Position numbers and translations under genes: made by a program. Below the pieces are notes generated by a model. The model saw nothing but the letters and a program-made list of their open reading frames with translations, did no database searches and was not told where the DNA came from. Source: Halobacteriovorax sp. (GTDB lineage: Bacteria; Bdellovibrionota; Bacteriovoracia; Bacteriovoracales; Bacteriovoracaceae). From it: a DNA stretch of 64,000 bases. Positions 29,212 through 39,364 of the stretch are shown in pieces; position 1 is the stretch's first letter, and each line of letters opens with the position of its first letter. The DNA is taken from NCBI GenBank assembly GCA_002720865.1, contig PBIO01000014.1:372001-436000 (forward strand). The letters are read 5' to 3'.

Positions 29212-30288
29212 ATGAAAGATTTAGGACAACTAATTTTTACAGGAATTAGTGGAATCACTCTTACGGAAGAAGAAAAAGAGTTTATAGAAAAAGAAAATAT
29301 TGGTGGCATAGTTTTATTTGCTGAAAATTTTGAGTCTCCTGCCCAACTTGCGGAATTAGTTAACTCCATACAAAAACTTAGAGATGAGTACCCCCTCTAT
29401 ATTTCTGTAGATCATGAAGGCGGAAGGGTCATTAGATTCAGAAAGTACTTTACTCAATTTCCTCCTATGATGGAAATAGCCTCAGTGGGTTCTCCAAAAC
29501 TATGCTTTGAAGTTTCAACTATTATGGCCCAAGAATTAAAAGCTTGTGGCATTAATTTAAATCTTGCCCCTGTCTGCGACATTTTAACTAACGAATCTAA
29601 TAAGGTCATTGGGGATCGTGCTTTTGGAAGGGACCATGAGTCGGTTTCGAAGTATGTATCAAGTGCTATTAGGGGCTTTCAAACGGAAGGTATTCAAGCT
29701 TGTGCTAAACACTTTCCTGGACATGGGTCTACAACAAAAGATTCTCATTTCGACTTACCTTATGTGACGAAAAGCCTAGAGGAATTAAAGCAAGAAGAGA
29801 TACAGCCATTTATCAAAGCCATTAAAAGTAGGGTTGAGTTTGTTATGATGGCCCATTTGGTTGTTGATGCTTTTGATAAAGAGAAACCTTGTACTCTGAG
29901 TCCGGCAGCTCACGATTATCTAAGAAATGAATTGAAGTTCAACCGTATTATTATTTCAGATGATATGGAGATGAAAGCAATAACCGATAATTATTCAATT
30001 GAAGATGCAGCCGTTATGGCCATTAATGCGGGGACAGATGTTATTGAGTATAGAACTATGGCCACAGCAAGAGTTGCTCTAGAAGGTTTAAAAGAAGCGC
30101 TCAAGACTAAGAAGTTAAAAAATGATGTGGCTAAGGACAGAATTGCTCGAGTTTTAAATAGTAAAAAAACTCACCTGGCCGACTATTCACCGGTTTATAT
30201 CCCTGAGCTTGAGAAGAAGATTAATTCCCGACAAAGCCAGTTGTTTATTGATGAGTTAAATAAACAACTTACAGAAGTTTCGCCTTAA
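29212..30288 (+). CDS. nagZ: NagZ-like beta-N-acetylhexosaminidase (glycoside hydrolase family 3)
   Basis: It removes N-acetylglucosamine from anhydro-muropeptides during cell-wall recycling. The family motif ACAKHFPGHGSTTKDSHFDL begins at about residue 163, holding the catalytic-dyad His and Asp; the nucleophile Asp is in IIISDDMEMKAI (about 244-255). The front part has GGIVLFAENFESPAQL and SVDHEGGRV, as in other NagZ enzymes. At 358 residues it is a single-domain cytoplasmic form without signal peptide. It follows the two peptide-type permeases on the same strand, a plausible link to muropeptide import. Confidence 0.92.
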   Translation: MKDLGQLIFTGISGITLTEEEKEFIEKENIGGIVLFAENFESPAQLAELVNSIQKLRDEYPLYISVDHEGGRVIRFRKYFTQFPPMMEIASVGSPKLCFEVSTIMAQELKACGINLNLAPVCDILTNESNKVIGDRAFGRDHESVSKYVSSAIRGFQTEGIQACAKHFPGHGSTTKDSHFDLPYVTKSLEELKQEEIQPFIKAIKSRVEFVMMAHLVVDAFDKEKPCTLSPAAHDYLRNELKFNRIIISDDMEMKAITDNYSIEDAAVMAINAGTDVIEYRTMATARVALEGLKEALKTKKLKNDVAKDRIARVLNSKKTHLADYSPVYIPELEKKINSRQSQLFIDELNKQLTEVSP

Positions 30289-30416
30289 TATAATGGCAAC
30301 CAGCTAATCGTATAACCACTTGAAATTACATTGGGTAAGGGGAGTTTATTGCCCCACATTAGATAAGGCTCACTCCTTTGATATCCTATAGTTACAGGAA
30401 AAAAGGGAGAATTTTT

Positions 30417-31313
30417 ATGCTCGCCGTAGCGGCCACTGTACTTATCTTTATAGCAGTCTTTCTTGTTACAAACATGATGTTTCAAGAAGAAGAAGAGTAC
30501 AAAGCTGGTGAAAAAATTGAAGAAGGGATTAACAAAGGGCAAGAAAAGCTCAATGAACAAGGCCCTATCTTAAGAATATCTCGTCCCTTTTTTAGAAGGT
30601 ATGTAACTCCAATTGTTTCGACAATGAAGAGTAAGAAAAAGATCCGAGAAAAATATAAACGTAAACTTGCGAGTTCTGGATTAACAGAAATTTTAACACC
30701 AGAAGATTTCTTTTCATTTAAGCTTTTTCTTATCATTGGGTTCCCCATTGCCTTTTTTATAATCCGTTGGTTTATGGAAGAAGATTGGCCACTTTCAGTC
30801 ATTCCAGTTGTTGCAGGTCTTGGATATGTTTATCCAGATATTTGGATAGATGGAAAAATTCAACAAAGACAAAAAGAGATTATGCAAAACATGCCGTTTG
30901 CTGTTGATATGCTTGCTCTATCAGTTGAAGCGGGTCTCGATTTTATGGCAGCAATGACAAAAGTTGTTGAGAAGGCTAAGCCAAATCCCCTTAATGAAGA
31001 ATTCGAGATACTTTTAAAAGAAGTTAAGATTGGGGCGAGCAGAGCTGAGGCGCTTCGTAATATGTCCTGGAGAGTTGATCTGGTTAGTATTGCTTCTTTC
31101 TGTGCAACTTTAATTGCTGCTGATTCCGTTGGTGCTTCCATTGGTCCGATCTTAAAAGCACTAAGTGCCGAGATAAGGCAGAAAAAATCAGCAGAAGCAG
31201 AGAAAGCGGGTGCTACAGCAGCTACAAAAATACTTTTTCCAATGATCTTCCTAATTATGCCAGCCGTTATCATTATAGTTATGGCCCCAATAGCAATGGG
31301 ATTCTTACAGTAA
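30417..31313 (+). CDS. TadC-like / type II secretion F-domain membrane protein
   Basis: A 298-residue inner-membrane protein with one N-terminal membrane segment (about residues 1-22), a cytoplasmic T2SSF domain (about 155-275) and flanking segments, ending in IFLIMPAVIIIVMAPIAMGF. The motif MPFAVDMLALSVEAGLDFMAAM and later IAADSVGASIGPILKALSAEIRQKKS are typical of TadC, the platform protein of Tad (Flp) pili. TadB, TadA and other Tad genes are not in the window. A frame opens earlier at 30378, but the ATG at 30417 has GGGAGA six bases before it. FHA-domain proteins that follow are a known companion of Tad-type loci in related predatory bacteria and myxobacteria. Confidence 0.84.
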   Translation: MLAVAATVLIFIAVFLVTNMMFQEEEEYKAGEKIEEGINKGQEKLNEQGPILRISRPFFRRYVTPIVSTMKSKKKIREKYKRKLASSGLTEILTPEDFFSFKLFLIIGFPIAFFIIRWFMEEDWPLSVIPVVAGLGYVYPDIWIDGKIQQRQKEIMQNMPFAVDMLALSVEAGLDFMAAMTKVVEKAKPNPLNEEFEILLKEVKIGASRAEALRNMSWRVDLVSIASFCATLIAADSVGASIGPILKALSAEIRQKKSAEAEKAGATAATKILFPMIFLIMPAVIIIVMAPIAMGFLQ

Positions 31314-31316
31314 TTT

Positions 31317-31673
31317 ATGAGAGAGAAAATGGAAATTAAGACGAAGGAAAATATTTATATCGCTAAAGAGGCTATTGAGGCAAAGAGCAGTTTACAGAAA
31401 ATGAAAGGGTTAATGTTTTCAAAAGGGATGGATGGGTTTGATGCAATGTTATTTAAAAGATGTAATTCGATTCACACATTTTTTATGAATTATCCCTTAG
31501 ATATTTTATTTATTAATAGAGAAATGAAAATAGTGAAAATAATTAGAAACTTGAAGCCATGGAGAATGACACGTTTGTATTTTAGTGCCTATCAAGCGCT
31601 AGAATTAAAGGGGGGAACCCTTGATGAACGAGTTCAAGAGGGTGATGTGCTAGAGGTTATATGTATAAATTAG
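31317..31673 (+). CDS. DUF192 family protein
   Basis: A 118-residue single-domain protein. The DUF192 landmarks are visible: LQKMKGLMFSKGMDGFDAML, the SIHTFFMNYPLDILFI stretch (about residues 51-66), then LKPWRM and QALELKGGTLDE. In other bacteria such proteins are usually secreted or membrane-linked, but this one has no signal peptide. The function of the family is not known. It follows the TadC-like gene by 3 bp and overlaps the next FHA gene by 13 bp. A second ATG at 31329 is a possible start. Confidence 0.85.
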   Translation: MREKMEIKTKENIYIAKEAIEAKSSLQKMKGLMFSKGMDGFDAMLFKRCNSIHTFFMNYPLDILFINREMKIVKIIRNLKPWRMTRLYFSAYQALELKGGTLDERVQEGDVLEVICIN

Positions 31674-33220
31674 TAGCAGTAGCAGGAAAATTAAGGGGCC
31701 AAGAGTTTGAACTCCATGATGGAGAGAATACTTGTGGTAGAGACTCTGGGTGTGATGTTCATTTACCGGTTCAGGGAATCTCAAAAAAGCATATGTCCGT
31801 CACGGTGACCGATGATGTTTGCTATATAAATGATTTAGGTTCATCAAATGGAACTTTTTTAAATGGAAAAATTGTAAAGAGAGCAACGGCAGAAAACGGA
31901 GATAAGGTTGCACTTCCAGATTTAATCTTACAAGTTGTCTACGTTGAAGAAAAAAAGATTATTGTTAAAAAAGCTGTAACCGATGAAGATGATGATGAAG
32001 ATGAGTTGTTTAAACCAGACCCGATGCCTGAAAATATCGCGGGCAAAATAGTATGGTCATTTAAATGGAAGTTGATGCCTGTTATTCACGGAATTAATGA
32101 AGAGTATGAATGGAGTCACTTATTTGGAATTTTACTGGCTCTTTTTTCCGTTGCAACGATCACTCTAACAATTCTACCTGTTCTTAGGGATAGTCGAGAA
32201 ATCCTATATACAGAAATTGCAAAAAGAGGAAGTCACTACGCCGAAGAAATTGCCAGAATTAATGCTCAGGCTCTTGAAGATAATAGATTGGAAAGAGTCG
32301 ATACTGCGTTCTTAGACAAAGAGGATGGAGTAAGTTCATACGAGTTGTTTGACCCAAGTCTAAGAATTGTGAGACCGATTACTCAACTAAATGAATACTC
32401 TAAAGATGCATTTTCCGCTGAAGCGAAAGATGTTTTAATGAATCCGAAGAAGAAGACTTCCTTACATGCTAGAAGACTAAATGATGGTGCCATCGGGATT
32501 GGTAAAAAAATTATGGCCTTCGATGCTAAGTTGGGAAGACAAAAACCGGTTGGGATTATTGCGATTAAATTTAATCCCGAATCACTAGTTAAAGAAGCCA
32601 AAAGAAGTACGCGTCTCTATCTGGAGTCGTTAGTGACCTCAGCTATGGTCGCCATTATATTTTTTGGAATTATTTACTATCTTACTCAAAGACCGATAGA
32701 TGAGCTTCGCTTTCAAATTGAAGAAGCTCTACGGGGAAAAAGAAAATCTTTAGAGTCAGAATATTTAATGTCTTCATTAGATCCTTTGCGAGATTCAATT
32801 AACTCAGTTCTACAAAGGATGCGAGAGTTAAATGCAGAGGAAGGCGATGGCGAATTTGTCGAAGAAGAGGATGATGAAAGTTATGTATCAACCTTGAAGG
32901 AATTTATGCGAGGTTCTTCAGGTGGGGCCATGGTACTGGATAGTCAGAAAAATGTGATCTCCATTAATATGGAAGCTGAAGACTTAACAGGTATTAGGGA
33001 GTCTGCAGCTGAAGGAATGAGTTTACTTGATGTTGCTAGGGAGCAAGGCTTTGCTGCGACGGTTTTAGACTTATGCGAAAATTCTGCATCAAATATGGGT
33101 ACGAACCAAGAAGGAGAGTATGAACTCTCTGGTATGCCACATCAAATACATGTATGTTCGCTGATGGGTAAAGATGGATTTGCAAAGGCTTTTTATGTGA
33201 CCTTTGTTAAGGATGAATAA
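31661..33220 (+). CDS. Transmembrane FHA-HAMP-PAS sensor without catalytic output
   Basis: A 519-residue protein with an unusual order. An N-terminal FHA domain (residues 5-95) has all pThr-binding residues: G26 R27, S41 and H44, and S61-S62-N63-G64-T65. An acidic linker follows, then a membrane segment (154-172), a periplasmic sensor region (~175-320) with SHYAEEIARIN, a second membrane segment (~322-343), a HAMP-like helix pair with RPIDELRFQIEEAL, and a PAS-like domain (~405-515). There is no kinase, cyclase or phosphatase at the end. The build suggests that a periplasmic signal is passed to pThr-bearing partners. It lies in the TadC-FHA-PP2C gene block. Confidence 0.78.
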   Translation: MYKLVAVAGKLRGQEFELHDGENTCGRDSGCDVHLPVQGISKKHMSVTVTDDVCYINDLGSSNGTFLNGKIVKRATAENGDKVALPDLILQVVYVEEKKIIVKKAVTDEDDDEDELFKPDPMPENIAGKIVWSFKWKLMPVIHGINEEYEWSHLFGILLALFSVATITLTILPVLRDSREILYTEIAKRGSHYAEEIARINAQALEDNRLERVDTAFLDKEDGVSSYELFDPSLRIVRPITQLNEYSKDAFSAEAKDVLMNPKKKTSLHARRLNDGAIGIGKKIMAFDAKLGRQKPVGIIAIKFNPESLVKEAKRSTRLYLESLVTSAMVAIIFFGIIYYLTQRPIDELRFQIEEALRGKRKSLESEYLMSSLDPLRDSINSVLQRMRELNAEEGDGEFVEEEDDESYVSTLKEFMRGSSGGAMVLDSQKNVISINMEAEDLTGIRESAAEGMSLLDVAREQGFAATVLDLCENSASNMGTNQEGEYELSGMPHQIHVCSLMGKDGFAKAFYVTFVKDE

Positions 33221-33224
33221 CTAA

Positions 33225-34223
33225 ATGGCTAACGGAGCGGTCAAAATTTCTAAGGAATTGACTTTGGCGAGAGCTGAAGGGGATCAGTTTCGTCTTCTCT
33301 GTTTAACAGGAAAGAATAAAGGAACCTCTTATTTCCTAAGTGGAAAACGTGCCGTCATGGGAAGAGGTGATGAGGCGGATGTTCAGGTTTTAGATGCAAA
33401 GTCTAGTCGAGCTCATGCTGAACTTAAAAAAGTAGGTAGCACCTATGTTGTTACTGATTTGGGAAGTCAGAATGGGATTGTGGTTAATGATCTAAAAGTG
33501 ACTCAACATAAATTAGTTGATAACGATAAAATTATCATCGGACAAACTGTTTTCAAATACAGCGTTATCCCAGATAAAACTAAAACGGATTTAGTTGAAG
33601 TCGATGATGAAGATGAAGAGGAAATTGAAGAAGAATTAGACAAAGGCAAAAAGAAAAAAGGTAAGGAAAAAGAAAAGAAAAGTAGAAAGAGAAATATCAT
33701 GATTATTGCCGTGCTTGGGCTAATCTATTTACTGATGCTTGATTCTGATGAACCTAAAAAGAAAGCAAAAAAGCCAGTGACAGACCCGGATGATATTACT
33801 GCTACTTTAGATTCAGTATATAGAGAACAAAAGAAAATTGAAGATAAAGATACGAGAGATAAAGTTCAAACTTTTATCCATAGAGGTCAAAGAGAATATA
33901 GAGAAGGCAATTACTTTAGAGCTATTGAGCAGTTAAATCTTTGCTTAATTTTGGCACCGGCACATGGATACTGCAGTTTCTTACTAGCAAAAAGTAAGCA
34001 ACAGTTTGATGCAATGATTAATCAGCATTTTGAAAAAGCTAAGATTGATGTTGATGCTTTAAAGTACAAAGCAGCGATGGTTGAATATTGCGCGGTCGTA
34101 AAACTTTTAGGTGAATATAAAAAAGCTGGAAAGTCAGATGTTAGACTTGAAGAAGCGGAAGCAAATATTGAATTTGTAGAAAAGAAACTAGGAATGGACC
34201 CAGGTGAACATAAGTGTTTTTAA
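33225..34223 (+). CDS. FHA-domain protein with membrane anchor and TPR-like tail
   Basis: A 332-residue protein. The FHA domain is at about residues 20-115, with G46 R47, S61/H64 and SQNG (81-84), so pThr binding is plausible. A charged Lys/Glu linker leads to one membrane segment (about 160-178, RNIMIIAVLGLIYLLML), and the C-terminal half (215-320) is TPR-like, with YREGNYFRAIEQLNLCLILA. The orientation predicts the FHA part in the cytoplasm and the TPR part in the periplasm. The last 20 bp overlap the next gene. No enzyme domain is present; it is probably a scaffold. Confidence 0.82.
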   Translation: MANGAVKISKELTLARAEGDQFRLLCLTGKNKGTSYFLSGKRAVMGRGDEADVQVLDAKSSRAHAELKKVGSTYVVTDLGSQNGIVVNDLKVTQHKLVDNDKIIIGQTVFKYSVIPDKTKTDLVEVDDEDEEEIEEELDKGKKKKGKEKEKKSRKRNIMIIAVLGLIYLLMLDSDEPKKKAKKPVTDPDDITATLDSVYREQKKIEDKDTRDKVQTFIHRGQREYREGNYFRAIEQLNLCLILAPAHGYCSFLLAKSKQQFDAMINQHFEKAKIDVDALKYKAAMVEYCAVVKLLGEYKKAGKSDVRLEEAEANIEFVEKKLGMDPGEHKCF

Positions 34224-36504
34224 GGACAATCAATCAGTCGTCGAGGTAAATCTTGGCTCTGAAGTTCTGGGGAACTTAAACTCAGATACGACCTTTTTTG
34301 TGGGACGTTCGCCGGAGTGTCATGTCCATTTAGATGATAAACAAATTTCGAGAGAACATGCCGAAATTTCTTATAATGGCTCCGCCTGGAATATAAAGCA
34401 ACTATCACCTTTTTCTAAAGTCATTGTAAATGGTACCCCATACGAGGCAAAAGAATTAGCCGCGGGCGATATTATTACAGTTGGCCCTTATGTCTTAAAT
34501 GTTGCTATTCCTCAGGTTGAAGCGACTGAGCCAGCGCCTGTTAGCGAAGAGATTGAAGAGGAAATTCCAGCTGACGATATTCCTGATGTAGAAGAAATTG
34601 ATGATGACATAGATGATTTTGACGAAGAAACCGTGGCCATGGCTTCAAATGAAGTTGACGACCTCGCGGAAGATTTAGATGAAGAGTCCTTTGATGCAGA
34701 TGGTGAAGAAGATTTTGAGGCAGCAGCTGAAGGGGATGAAGATTTTTCTTCAGATGATTTTGATTCTGACGGAGAAGATTTCGAAGCTGAAGAAATGGAA
34801 GTCAGTGAAGATGGGGACGATGATTTATTCGGAGAAGGAGACTCAGACGGTGAAGAGGCTTCGGGATTTGAAGAAACGGATGGAGATTACGCGGTAGATG
34901 CCTTTGAAGACGATGACGATGATGAAAGCACAAGAGTAATACAAACCTTCGCGAAAGTAGAGTTTGAGCTCTTTGGGGAATACGCTCCTTATGAAAAATA
35001 TGTATTAGATACTAATGAGATAACAATTGGACGTGACCCCGAGAAATGTCAGATCGTTTTAAATGATCCAGAAGTTTCGGGAACCCATGCGAAATTTAAG
35101 AAAAATAATATTACGTGTTCAGTTGAAGATTTAGATTCTGGAAATGGGACTCTTCTTAATGGGGAGAGAATAAATAAATCGATTCTTACAAATAATGATG
35201 AAGTCATCATCGGTGGAACGACTTTTACAGTGAAAATTATTTCTGACTTCCTAGAAGAAGAAGAAAATAGACTCATGCCGGTTGAAGAAAACCAGGTCGT
35301 GGAAGTAGAAGAAATAGTAGAGGTTGATGCGGATTTCGATGATGAGATGATGGAAGCTCAAGAAGGAGCTTCTGACGGTAAAACCAGTATTATCGCAGAT
35401 ATTAAAAATTTTAAGAATTTGCCTCCGGAAAGAAAAAAGAAAATTGTTATCTATGGAATAGTCGGCATTGGGCTATTGTCAGTACTTCTTTCAGAAGATG
35501 GAGAGAAAAAGGCTAATGCCAAGAAAGAAAAAGGAAGAAAGTCCCAGAGGCTTGAGGCCGAGAAACCATTAAATCCGAAAAAGAAAATGCTTAAAAAGTT
35601 AAGTAAAGAAGAGCAGGAGTTTGTTGAGTCTCGTTACCTTCTAGCTAAAGAACAAATTAACGTTGGGAAATATAGAGAGGCCATCACCGAACTCGACAAA
35701 ATTTTCGCTATTATTCCGGAGTATAAGCAATCAAAGCAGTTGTATGAGGTGGCAAAAGAAAGTTTTGCAAAGCTCGAGGAAGAAGAAAAGAAGAGAAGAG
35801 AAGAGATTGCAAGAAAGCAAAGAGAAGCGAAAGTTAAAATTCTAGTTGGTAATGCAAAAGAAGCTGTAAAAAATAATCAAACCATCAGGGCCAAATCTCT
35901 TTTTACTGAGATTATTAGTCTAGACCCAGAAAACTTTGATGTTCCACTCCTAAGGCAGCAAATTGAGGCTTACGAAAGAAAGCTTGAAAGAGAAGCCATG
36001 GAAAAGGCTCAAAAAGAAGCTGAACGGAAAAGACAGGTGGACTTATTAGCCCCTGGCAAAAACTATTTTTTAAACAAAGAATGGCATAGTGCTGTTTTAA
36101 AATTACAAGATTTCGTTAGGAAAAAAGGTATAGATGAAGACTTAATGACTGAGGGAGCAGAGATGCTATCAAAGTCTAGAGAAAACCTATCCAATATTGT
36201 GCAACCTCTACTTGGAAAAGCCAGAAGTCTAAAAGAAGGTCAGGATTTAAAGGGTGCTTATGAAAACTATCTTCAAGTACTTAAATTCGATCCCTCAAGT
36301 GCTGAAGCTTTAGATGAGAGTAATGAAATTCGAGAAAGATTAAAAAATAGAAGTAAAAAGATTTATAGAGAAGCTATTATTGCTGAGTCCTTAAGTCTTT
36401 TTGAGGATGCCAAAGAGAAATTTCAAGAAGTTCAGCAGGTATCACCTAGTGATAGTGAATATTATAAGAAAGCCACAGAAAAGCTTAAAGATTACTTAGA
36501 TTGA
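34204..36504 (+). CDS. Double-FHA protein with acidic linker, membrane anchor and TPR tail
   Basis: A 766-residue protein. FHA1 (residues 1-105) has FVGRSPECH and ISREHAE but SPFSKVIVNG where the SSNGT loop is expected, so its phosphopeptide binding may be altered. Then come ~135 residues very rich in Asp and Glu (about 110-245). FHA2 (about 245-345) is complete, with IGRDPEKC, VSGTHAKF and SGNGTLLNG. One membrane segment (about 412-430) is followed by a lysine-rich stretch and TPR repeats (475-766). The start is a GTG inside the previous gene, overlapping it by 20 bp. As with the preceding protein, FHA domains should be cytoplasmic and the TPR part periplasmic. Confidence 0.84.
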   Translation: MNISVFKDNQSVVEVNLGSEVLGNLNSDTTFFVGRSPECHVHLDDKQISREHAEISYNGSAWNIKQLSPFSKVIVNGTPYEAKELAAGDIITVGPYVLNVAIPQVEATEPAPVSEEIEEEIPADDIPDVEEIDDDIDDFDEETVAMASNEVDDLAEDLDEESFDADGEEDFEAAAEGDEDFSSDDFDSDGEDFEAEEMEVSEDGDDDLFGEGDSDGEEASGFEETDGDYAVDAFEDDDDDESTRVIQTFAKVEFELFGEYAPYEKYVLDTNEITIGRDPEKCQIVLNDPEVSGTHAKFKKNNITCSVEDLDSGNGTLLNGERINKSILTNNDEVIIGGTTFTVKIISDFLEEEENRLMPVEENQVVEVEEIVEVDADFDDEMMEAQEGASDGKTSIIADIKNFKNLPPERKKKIVIYGIVGIGLLSVLLSEDGEKKANAKKEKGRKSQRLEAEKPLNPKKKMLKKLSKEEQEFVESRYLLAKEQINVGKYREAITELDKIFAIIPEYKQSKQLYEVAKESFAKLEEEEKKRREEIARKQREAKVKILVGNAKEAVKNNQTIRAKSLFTEIISLDPENFDVPLLRQQIEAYERKLEREAMEKAQKEAERKRQVDLLAPGKNYFLNKEWHSAVLKLQDFVRKKGIDEDLMTEGAEMLSKSRENLSNIVQPLLGKARSLKEGQDLKGAYENYLQVLKFDPSSAEALDESNEIRERLKNRSKKIYREAIIAESLSLFEDAKEKFQEVQQVSPSDSEYYKKATEKLKDYLD

Positions 36505-36511
36505 GGAATTT

Positions 36512-37249
36512 ATGAAACTAAAGAGTTACTCAGCACATACTCACCAAGGGCCACATCTTCAGATCAATGAAGATGATGTCGAGATAGATTTAATTAATCA
36601 GTTGTATTTAATTTTTGATGGTTTTGGTGGGAGCGCTATTGGTGATGCTTGTGTTCAGGAGATAAAACAAACTATTAAAACTTTTTATACTAAGATCGGT
36701 GGAGATCCAGATGCAACCCTTCCGTTCTTTTTTAGCCATAAATACCTCCTCGAAGGTAATGCTTTGATTAATGCAATGGTTTACGCTCACGAGCAGCTAA
36801 AAAATAAAAATATAAAGTTAGAAATGAATGAAAGAGGCGGAGCTTCGTGTATTGCTGTTTCACAATCTGAAAATATTTTAACAGTAGTTGGAACTGGAAA
36901 TTGTGCAGGTTTTCTCTACCGAAATGGTCATATTTCCGAAGTAATGGGCCCAGATAATATGGAGCTATTAGGACAAGATGAATACTTAAAACATTTCTTG
37001 TCACTTCCAATGAGTGGTTTTGGATTGTTTGACGACTTACACTTCAAAGCTTCAGAGGTTAGGATTAAAGAAGACGATATTCTTATATTGTTAACTGATG
37101 GGGTATATTCAAGACTTAGCCCAGATGAAATTAAATTCATTCTAGATAGAAAACGTCCAAGTGACGGTCAGAAAGTCAAAGAGCTATTTAGCTTAGCAAA
37201 TAGTCGTGGAAATATGGATAATCAGTCTACCATTCTTCTCCAGTATTAA
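36512..37249 (+). CDS. PP2C-type protein phosphatase
   Basis: A 245-residue metal-dependent Ser/Thr phosphatase, cytoplasmic and single-domain. Motifs are in the right order: QINEDD near the start, LYLIFDGFGGSAIGD (about residues 31-45), GASCIAVSQ, ILILLTDGVYSRLSP (about 190-204) and NMDNQSTILLQY at the end. The metal-binding acidic residues (DG, DG, DN) all seem kept, so it is probably active. It starts 7 bp after the double-FHA gene. A PP2C next to pThr-binding FHA proteins points to reversible Thr phosphorylation, yet no Hanks-type kinase is encoded in the window. Confidence 0.82.
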   Translation: MKLKSYSAHTHQGPHLQINEDDVEIDLINQLYLIFDGFGGSAIGDACVQEIKQTIKTFYTKIGGDPDATLPFFFSHKYLLEGNALINAMVYAHEQLKNKNIKLEMNERGGASCIAVSQSENILTVVGTGNCAGFLYRNGHISEVMGPDNMELLGQDEYLKHFLSLPMSGFGLFDDLHFKASEVRIKEDDILILLTDGVYSRLSPDEIKFILDRKRPSDGQKVKELFSLANSRGNMDNQSTILLQY

Positions 37250-37319
37250 TTTGCCCCTACCAAGCTTTGGTTGCCGAAGTGACTAAAAATAGGTGAAAAT
37301 ATTCCAAAGGTTGGAATTA

Positions 37320-38657
37320 ATGGGCCATAAAATTCTGGTAGCAGACGACAGTCTTACAGTTCAAAAAGTAGTTAGTATTACTCTAGCGAGTTATGACTAT
37401 GATCTTGTTGAATGTAAGGACGAGTCACAATTAAATGAGAATCTCGTAATAGGTGGAGCAAGTCTTCTTCTTTTAGATTTAAATCTTTCTGAAGGAAAGT
37501 CAGGCTATGAAGTCGCTAAATCTGTTAGAGAAAAATCACCGAATCTTCCTATTATTTTACTACTAGGAACATTTGATACTGTTGATGAAAAGGCATTTTC
37601 TGAGGCAGGAATTAATGACCGAATTGTTAAGCCATTTGAGAGCAGCCTTTTTACTCAGAAAGTTCAGACAATTATCGAATCGGGACCAAGCTTAGATGAT
37701 AGCTCGAATAGTATTTTTGCTGGTGAGACTGAATCTAACTTTTTGAACTCTGAAGTTGAAGACATAACACCGGAAGCAGAGCTAAATATTGATAATGGAG
37801 ACGGCTGGGTTGTGGATAGTCCAGCTCCTGAAGACAAAAGTTCTGACACTTGGGATTCATTCTCACAGGAATCCTCTAGTAAAGGAGAGAATGCTTTGGA
37901 AGCTAGTTTAGAAGGCTGGGGGATGAATGTGCCCGGGCAAATTGGATCCGAATCATCCGACAATGATATGGAGCTTCCAGGAGTCATTGGTAAAACAGAA
38001 GCTGAAGTTACTGTCAGCGAGGCCGTAGAAGAACTTGATATCGTCCATGAAGAGGAAAAAAATCTTCCAGTTGAATCTGATCTTGATTATCCAGATGTTG
38101 GAGAGCCTGAAGTTAAAGAGCAATCTATCTTTAGTGAAGTGGATCATCAGCCCACTAGCGCCCTTGCTAGTACCGAAGAGTTTAATCTAGATGTTGAAGA
38201 CAACTCTGGCCCTAGTATTGAATCTGAAATTGAAATTGAAGAAGATGCAGAAGATTTTTGGGCCGCTGATGATGATTCCTCTAGTGAACAAGTCGACATC
38301 GCAATGGAAGTGGAGTCTGAAGAGGATGATCTTGAAGACTATCATGCAGAACCAGACGTAGAACAAATTCAGGAAATTACTATAGATGAGTCTGTATCAC
38401 TTGATTCTTTAGGTGATCCTAGAGGGAATGAGCCGTTTGAGATTCGTACTGACTTAAGTGTGGAAAATACTACTTCACAAGTTAATACTGCTGAAATTGT
38501 TGAAAAAATCCTAGAAGAATTAAAGCCGACGTTAAACGAGCTTGTTGAAAAGCATTGCAAAGAAACTATCGAAAGCGTTGCTTGGCAAATAATTCCAGAC
38601 TTAGCTGAAAATTTAATTAGGAATGAAATTAAAGAGATTAAATCTTCTACAACATAG
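37320..38657 (+). CDS. Response regulator with long acidic linker and conserved C-terminal helix
   Basis: A 445-residue protein. The receiver domain (residues 1-125) has the acidic pair D9-D10, phospho-acceptor D53, T84 and K104, so it should be phosphorylated by a histidine kinase. Residues ~130-375 are a low-complexity, Asp/Glu/Ser-rich linker without visible domain. The C-terminus (about 390-440) has SVAWQIIPDLAENLIRNEIK, a helical ending I recall from response regulators of delta-group bacteria; its role is unknown. No DNA-binding domain is present. A longer GTG-started frame from 37293 has no ribosome site; the ATG at 37320 follows TTGGAA and gives the standard MGHKILVADDS start. The stop is 2 bp before the convergent birA stop. 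Confidence 0.82.
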   Translation: MGHKILVADDSLTVQKVVSITLASYDYDLVECKDESQLNENLVIGGASLLLLDLNLSEGKSGYEVAKSVREKSPNLPIILLLGTFDTVDEKAFSEAGINDRIVKPFESSLFTQKVQTIIESGPSLDDSSNSIFAGETESNFLNSEVEDITPEAELNIDNGDGWVVDSPAPEDKSSDTWDSFSQESSSKGENALEASLEGWGMNVPGQIGSESSDNDMELPGVIGKTEAEVTVSEAVEELDIVHEEEKNLPVESDLDYPDVGEPEVKEQSIFSEVDHQPTSALASTEEFNLDVEDNSGPSIESEIEIEEDAEDFWAADDDSSSEQVDIAMEVESEEDDLEDYHAEPDVEQIQEITIDESVSLDSLGDPRGNEPFEIRTDLSVENTTSQVNTAEIVEKILEELKPTLNELVEKHCKETIESVAWQIIPDLAENLIRNEIKEIKSSTT

Positions 38658-38659
38658 TT

Positions 38660-39364
38660 TTAAAACCAAAGCGACCCTGAAATAATTTTTTTTAGACCAT
38701 CCTGGTTTTCAATAAGCGCTTCACCATTTTCTCCAACACCTTTAAAAACTCCACTAAGGCTTGATTGTCCGTCTATTATTTGAACCTTTTTATTTAGGTG
38801 AAAACAATTCTTAGTCCAGTTACTTCTGATATCGCAGCTAGAAAGGCGATTATTTAGAATATATTGATAAATTTCATTGGGAAGTTCGTGGCTAAAATTT
38901 TGATAGGAAGAAAGGTCAATACTTAGAGCACCTGCTGGAAATTTAGACCCTTCTATTTTAGAGGGAATATTAACCTCAAGATTTAAACCTATTCCAACGA
39001 GTAGATTTTTATTATCAAGGAAATGACAAAGTATTCCGCCAGCTTTTTTAACCTCAGATTCCTCTAGGATCAAAAGATCATTTGGCCATTTTAGTACTAA
39101 ATCAGCACCTTTATTTTTGAAAAAATTTGTTATCAAACATCCAATCTCTAATGGAGTCAGTGTTAATATTTCACAAGGCGTTAAGACGAAGGAGAAGGCG
39201 AGTGATTTACCTAGCTGATCCCACGAGTTTCCATGTCTTCCCTTCCCTGAAAGCTGTTTCGTTGTCGATACTAAGAGAGACTCCCCTAAATACTCGGAAA
39301 TATTTTCTTTAACCCACTCTTGGGTAGAAGGTAATTGCTCAAATTTTAAGTGTCTGATTTCCAT
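38660..39364 (-). CDS. birA: Biotin-protein ligase BirA, ligase domain only
   Basis: It joins biotin to the carrier lysine of carboxylases, here probably Lys134 of the protein encoded at 3376-3888. The 234-residue chain has the biotin/ATP motif SGKGRHGNSWDQ (about residues 38-49), LVLKWPNDLL (about 93-102) and the C-terminal SH3-like domain ending GLKKIISGSLWF. The N-terminal DNA-binding domain of E. coli BirA is absent, so it is not a repressor. It is transcribed toward the response regulator and divergently from RNase PH. Confidence 0.92.
   Translation of the reverse strand: MEIRHLKFEQLPSTQEWVKENISEYLGESLLVSTTKQLSGKGRHGNSWDQLGKSLAFSFVLTPCEILTLTPLEIGCLITNFFKNKGADLVLKWPNDLLILEESEVKKAGGILCHFLDNKNLLVGIGLNLEVNIPSKIEGSKFPAGALSIDLSSYQNFSHELPNEIYQYILNNRLSSCDIRSNWTKNCFHLNKKVQIIDGQSSLSGVFKGVGENGEALIENQDGLKKIISGSLWF

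Follow-up and report, generated by a model that had tools for sequence, protein, structure and literature searches.

The seven genes at positions 30,417 to 38,657 of a stretch of Halobacteriovorax sp. DNA (the window: 64,000 nucleotides (nt), positions 372001–436000 of contig C14, PBIO01000014.1, in a genome of 4.9 Mb) are best read as a control unit of a Tad pilus, in which phosphothreonine (pThr) would act as a switch on pilus assembly or firing, a reading to which we assign, taken as a whole, a probability of about 0.7. We are nearly certain of its first component, namely that the block belongs to the Tad machine as the tadC-bearing half of a Kil-like Tad (type IVb) pilus locus that is split. 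The evidence consists of the contiguity and conservation that place the block in the Tad machine, the published predation phenotypes of its orthologues in the bd0470–bd0475 operon of Bdellovibrio bacteriovorus, and the intact residues of its putative pThr readers and eraser. The genes of the block are:

30417..31313, + strand: tadC, Tad/type II secretion system (T2SS)-F inner-membrane platform protein, second half of a TadB–TadC pair, KilH-type (Pfam T2SSF, 3.6e-16)
31317..31673, + strand: DUF192 protein, kept in order in nearly all loci (Pfam DUF192, 1.5e-18)
31661..33220, + strand: FHA1, Bd0472 equivalent by position (FHA, 8e-15)
33225..34223, + strand: FHA2, Bd0473 equivalent (FHA, 6.8e-14)
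34204..36504, + strand: FHA3, Bd0474 equivalent (FHA, 2.4e-31, two domains)
36512..37249, + strand: PP2C-family phosphatase, Bd0475 equivalent (NCBIfam Stp1, 8.2e-15; fold match)
37293..38657, or from an ATG at 37320, + strand: response regulator, family-specific block member (Response_reg, 3.1e-13)

A check of the open reading frames (ORFs) found all seven genes at these positions on the + strand, consecutive and overlapping or nearly touching as originally described, with intergenic gaps of 3, −13, 4, −20, 7 and 43 nt from 5′ to 3′, and domain searches confirmed every family that had been named (TadC, DUF192, three FHA proteins, PP2C and response regulator). An alternative in-frame TTG lies upstream of tadC at 30378, and no transmembrane (TM) segments were seen in the DUF192 protein.

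The original prediction had stressed the absence of a kinase, TadA and TadB, which holds locally, but a search of the rest of the genome recovered two Hanks-type kinase proteins and a Tad core on the same contig, ~350 kb from the block (C14:49.4–56.8 kb, locus L084), which includes:

L084:9458-10351: TadB (T2SSF, 3.9e-18)
L084:10351-12555: TadA with an N-terminal ParA/TadZ-like ATPase domain (CbiA, 8.3e-11; T2SSE, 4.9e-59)

Further genes of the core encode a secretin (Secretin, 1.6e-11), RcpC (5.3e-20) and an A24 prepilin peptidase (1.4e-7), together with a Flp1-like pilin match of 4.5e-4, below the cut-off, and two TadE-like ORFs named by position and without a Pfam match. The genome holds six T2SSF matches, one in the window TadC, one in the core TadB and four in two double-domain proteins of ~405 amino acids (aa), leaving no unpaired Tad-type protein other than the window TadC to partner TadB; as judged from these sequences, TadC pairs with the TadB encoded 350 kb away. 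In ten genomes of other families (loci L069, L071, L072, L100, L102, L103, L104, L107, L108 and L119), the block lies directly upstream of the Tad core and runs into it on the same strand, and because of this junction we take it that in this family the Tad locus is in two parts, the block being the one with tadC. The locus is also split in G082, which is probably B. bacteriovorus HD100 and shows the gene order of bd0470–bd0475, with the block at 440 kb (locus L096) and TadB at 99 kb. At the TadB end of the Halobacteriovorax core lies a gene for an RHS/DUF6531 protein of ~550 aa (L084:7740-9368; C14:47.7–49.4 kb), which is also present at L071, L072, L079, L082 and L126, in several families, and looks like the hit-locus protein Bd0109, published as an RHS protein adjoining bd0110.

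We compared the surroundings of tadC across the phylum, in 63 further genomes, marking genes with profile hidden Markov models (HMMs) from relatives. Within the family, all seven genes stood in order in 18/18 readable loci (three more were cut at contig ends), with no unlinking in these close relatives, while in other families the run tadC–DUF192–FHA1–FHA2–FHA3 was found in 37 of 42 loci, or 37 of the 38 readable ones, since four of the remaining five were cut by contig ends. The sole real exception was L114 (genome G101), where tadC is not followed by FHA genes. The seven-gene order sought in other Bdellovibrionota is thus a property of the family, with five genes keeping their order beyond it and the response regulator occurring in the block only within the family (the apparent regulator at L121 is a weak, non-adjacent match). 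A PP2C-like gene comes after the five-gene run in most lineages; the HMM order test let in some weak matches, so single losses of DUF192 or PP2C are not readable from it. tadC itself was found in 37 of 39 relatives, at least one of which has TadB as its only match, and the TadC profile matched in 241/241 near-complete genomes of the phylum, the matches in G050 and G141 being weak and TadB-looking.

The orthologues of the block in B. bacteriovorus carry predation phenotypes. Transposon mutagenesis identified bd0470 (tadC) and bd0474 (FHA) as predation genes of one operon, the tadC mutant neither attaching to nor killing prey and the bd0474 mutant attaching without killing or prey rounding (Duncan 2019, PMC6561027). 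A further study described Bd0470–Bd0475 as a single operon and Bd0474 as an attack-phase expressed protein with two cytoplasmic FHA domains and an extracytoplasmic TPR domain, which bound the TPR protein Bd0075 in a two-hybrid assay, and AlphaFold-Multimer predicted a contact between Bd0473 and Bd0475 (PMC12034629). The tadB and tadA genes, bd0110 and bd0111, are separate from the bd0470 operon (Avidan 2017, PMC5430801).

Domain searches located four FHA domains in the three FHA proteins of the block, four rather than three because FHA3 carries two. FHA1 contains a cytoplasmic FHA domain, a TM segment (151–176), ~140 aa outside, a second TM segment (319–343), and HAMP-like and PAS-like regions, and is neither a TPR protein nor equipped with a kinase domain; its PAS match (6.5e-4) falls below the cut-off, and a WalK-like match spans residues 283–460. 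FHA2 has a cytoplasmic FHA domain, a single TM segment (155–176) and a C-terminal part outside, and FHA3 has two FHA domains flanking a long acidic linker, a single TM segment (412–431) and a TPR-like C-terminal half outside. The proposal that two FHA proteins place TPR domains across the membrane therefore stands for the membrane topology and only in part for the TPR domains, as the TPR_2 match of FHA3 (5.9e-6) is below the Pfam cut-off, a weak support, and a Pfam search for TPR in FHA2 detected none. The binding-loop residues Arg, Ser, His and Asn of FHA1 (GR, SxxH, NG) are near invariant across the phylum, those of the second FHA domain of FHA3 (FHA3b) are largely kept with a His that varies outside the family, and those of FHA2 are kept inside the family, suggesting that FHA1, FHA2 and FHA3b are pThr readers. 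A contig scan with FHA3 found three close relatives and no more.

The PP2C-family protein of the window retains the M1/M2 metal ligands D36, D196 and D236, with Asn130 in place of the third-metal Asp, and is apparently catalytically intact, making it the predicted eraser. Its Pfam SpoIIE match is below the cut-off; the nearest sequence with a solved structure is PppA of the Pseudomonas aeruginosa type VI secretion system (T6SS) (6jkv, 1.6e-9), and its structure model (predicted local distance difference test score, pLDDT, 61) gave PstP and PppA as the best fold matches. The M1/M2 ligands are complete in 17/19 family PP2C sequences, the window copy counted, and nearly all of them have Asn for Asp in the GDSR motif. 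The gene at the equivalent position encodes a protein that has lost the metal ligands in several other families, among them Bdellovibrionaceae. Bd0475, annotated as hypothetical, has lost every metal-binding Asp, and its sequence profile found no match in the PDB, but a profile–profile comparison related the Bd0475-type equivalent to the family PP2C (probability 97.9, E 5.6e-13). Given this relationship and the lost ligands, Bd0475 is best read as a PP2C relative turned pseudophosphatase, which could therefore act in Bdellovibrio only as a binding subunit.

The two Hanks-type kinase proteins of the genome are encoded on contigs C11 and C32, neither near the block, and a Pkinase-family match was present in 28/28 near-complete relatives. 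The 686-aa kinase has one match in G082, at 3.06 Mb, with 45% identity over the kinase domain; a kinase of this sort was called for in the study of the diguanylate cyclase DgcB, which named Bd3148 (PMC6733907), a gene that the match at 3.06 Mb would fit by its position. An FHA-GGDEF, DgcB-like gene (L085:1764-2672) lies 3.6 kb from the only full-length Hanks kinase gene of the genome (L085:6286-8346). At L086:6564-8068, a separate PP2C (PP2C_2, 3.7e-15) accompanies a 243-aa protein which the kinase profile matches with its N-terminal half only, and such short kinases recur in many genomes of the family. Four genomes from three other families (L088–L091; G027:C2, G036:C9, G028:C9 and G035:C70) encode a Hanks kinase close to a divergent second platform locus of Tad type and to cysteine-metabolism-like genes; the kinase is next to a TadB/TadC-like pair in G027, G028 and G036 and next to a T2SSF match in G035, and this kinase-linked locus is distinct from the block studied here.

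The last gene encodes a response regulator composed of a receiver with the conserved Asp, an acidic linker of ~265 aa (30% D+E) and a C-terminus bearing the strongly conserved motif VAWEVIPDLAENLI, for which a domain search matched no DNA-binding or other known output domain.

We propose that, upon prey contact, a remote Hanks kinase would phosphorylate Thr residues on Tad-associated proteins, and that FHA1, FHA2 and FHA3b would then dock to the pThr so formed, on the cytoplasmic side of the TadB–TadC–TadA platform. The single TM segments of FHA2 and FHA3 could couple docking to their C-terminal domains outside (TPR-like in FHA3), which may recruit periplasmic partners and thereby license pilus assembly or firing, while FHA1 would provide an added membrane sensor input, the PP2C would reset the phosphorylation state and the response regulator would supply an extra input specific to the family. 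That the family has a complete pThr switch, active eraser included, is in our estimate slightly less likely than not. We give the same odds, a little short of even, to the idea that the whole set (a Hanks kinase encoded elsewhere, the three FHA membrane proteins, the PP2C as eraser and the response regulator) controls a Tad pilus deployed against prey; it would be the first switch of this kind in a Tad machine, with an eraser that decayed to a pseudophosphatase in several lineages, Bd0475 being an example.

Several observations weigh against a pThr switch. The phosphosites, the kinase–substrate pairs and the phosphatase activity are all putative, no kinase was seen beside the block at any locus examined, and the presence of kinases and of FHA domains is not specific to Tad. 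Phosphorylation of the partner is not always required for FHA binding, and FHA3a, the first such domain of FHA3, has lost its binding-loop Asn. The AlphaFold model of FHA1, made from three sequences, was poor (pLDDT 44) and was for that reason excluded from the fold search, and the C-terminal domain of FHA2 is without a fold assignment. Some lineages retain the PP2C ligand set only in part and no PP2C was recognised at the block in genomes of families f3 and f7, suggesting that the decay of the phosphatase probably happened more than once. With the PP2C degenerate or unrecognised in many relatives, dephosphorylation is neither universal nor essential to the machine, so that control by Thr phosphorylation, as originally proposed, persists as the best working model for one conserved unit, without its dephosphorylation arm being general.

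One alternative is a structural explanation. The FHA-like SctD/YscD proteins are building blocks of the type III secretion system, and by this model the FHA-TM-TPR proteins would be constitutive parts of the Tad basal body, with little or no role for pThr and with the PP2C-like protein as a scaffold subunit. Matches of the Yop-YscD_cpl family to FHA1, FHA2 and FHA3 agree with such a scaffold, as do the extension of FHA2 and FHA3 to the outside, the binding of Bd0474 to Bd0075 and the predicted Bd0473–Bd0475 contact (PMC12034629), and the retention of FHA1–FHA3 in many lineages whose PP2C is dead or missing. However, a pure scaffold would have no use for the pThr-binding residues that FHA1, and for the most part FHA3b, retain across very divergent sequences, nor does it account for the catalytic PP2C residues kept in the family. 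We therefore consider the scaffold unlikely, and it stays alive as the main rival because phosphatase chemistry has been lost in many lineages.

The remaining explanations concern what the block belongs to, and for one of them its boundaries matter:

29212..30288, + strand: GH3/nagZ, upstream neighbour outside the system (Pfam GH3, 2.8e-78)
38660..39364, − strand: birA-like gene, antisense boundary of the block, outside the system (named from a sequence reading only)

The block starts 128 nt downstream of nagZ, and promoter and terminator scans gave signals no better than shuffled sequence. Inside the family, conservation extends to the flanking nagZ, birA, rph and rdgB, as would be expected if the seven genes were housekeeping neighbours inherited with nagZ and birA and without a functional link. 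Outside the family, however, the five genes keep their order although the nagZ and birA flanks differ or are turned round, which argues that this order does not reflect passive inheritance of a neighbourhood; as the genes also overlap, we regard such an origin as the least probable of all, and a chance neighbourhood was ruled out by the same variation of the flanks. A new secretion or signalling system that works on its own, without the Tad pilus, would fit the 350 kb that separate tadC from tadA and tadB here, but is very improbable in view of the contiguity of block and Tad core in the ten other-family genomes, the lone unpaired partner that the window TadC offers to TadB, and the predation phenotypes of the tadC and FHA mutants in B. 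bacteriovorus; a stand-alone secretion system was ruled out on that contiguity. A T6SS remnant was likewise ruled out, as the sheath gene VipB (PF05943) was searched for in the genome and is absent.

Reading the block as a pThr-controlled Tad unit brings predation genes that had lacked an explanation together in one machine, assigns them roles, and turns the trigger of the Tad/Kil pilus by prey contact into a question of named proteins and residues, for which relatives with an apparently active phosphatase would be better models than B. bacteriovorus. Searches of the literature collection used here found no report joining Tad pili, FHA domains and PP2C, and nothing relevant on DUF192 and Tad pili. 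The claim that the system was undescribed nevertheless has to be withdrawn, since bd0470–bd0475 has been published with predation phenotypes and, in 2021, a description of Kil pointed to the abundance of its FHA proteins and put forward a T6SS-like cascade triggered by contact (PMC8460266). A predation-linked Tad operon with FHA proteins in predatory Bdellovibrionota is thus an already published, poorly understood kind; what would be new are a sixth gene that is a PP2C with active-looking and dead-looking forms, and the family-specific response regulator.

Among known systems, bd0470–bd0475, whose transposon mutants (bd0470, bd0474) lose predation, is closest: its gene content and order (tadC, DUF192, FHA, FHA, double FHA-TM-TPR and PP2C-like) match those of the block, and it is likewise separate from tadA/tadB. 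The block differs in a PP2C whose metal ligands are intact and in the response regulator as a seventh gene. Kil of Myxococcus xanthus (PMC8460266, PMC12075869), which its authors list as present in Bdellovibrionales, is likewise Tad-derived and encoded at two loci with several FHA proteins, a likeness drawn from the published descriptions, which, as far as they served us here, mention neither a PP2C nor a response regulator. KilF carries an N-terminal FHA domain, whereas the TadA that goes with the block has a ParA/CbiA-type (TadZ-like) N-terminus instead, and for this reason we call the locus Kil-like rather than Kil proper. In the same predator lineage, DgcB of B. bacteriovorus provides a pThr gate on prey invasion through its FHA domain (PMC6733907), but is a cyclic di-GMP enzyme encoded outside the Tad locus. 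The PpkA–PppA–Fha1 pathway of T6SS ties a PP2C and an FHA protein to a contact weapon, as the block may do, and its PppA is, among solved structures, closest in sequence to the window PP2C and ranks, along with PstP, at the top of the fold matches; the block differs in having no clustered kinase, three membrane FHA proteins and a Tad platform. We propose as the best working model that the block acts as a pThr switch on a Tad pilus, reminiscent of PpkA/PppA/Fha in T6SS.

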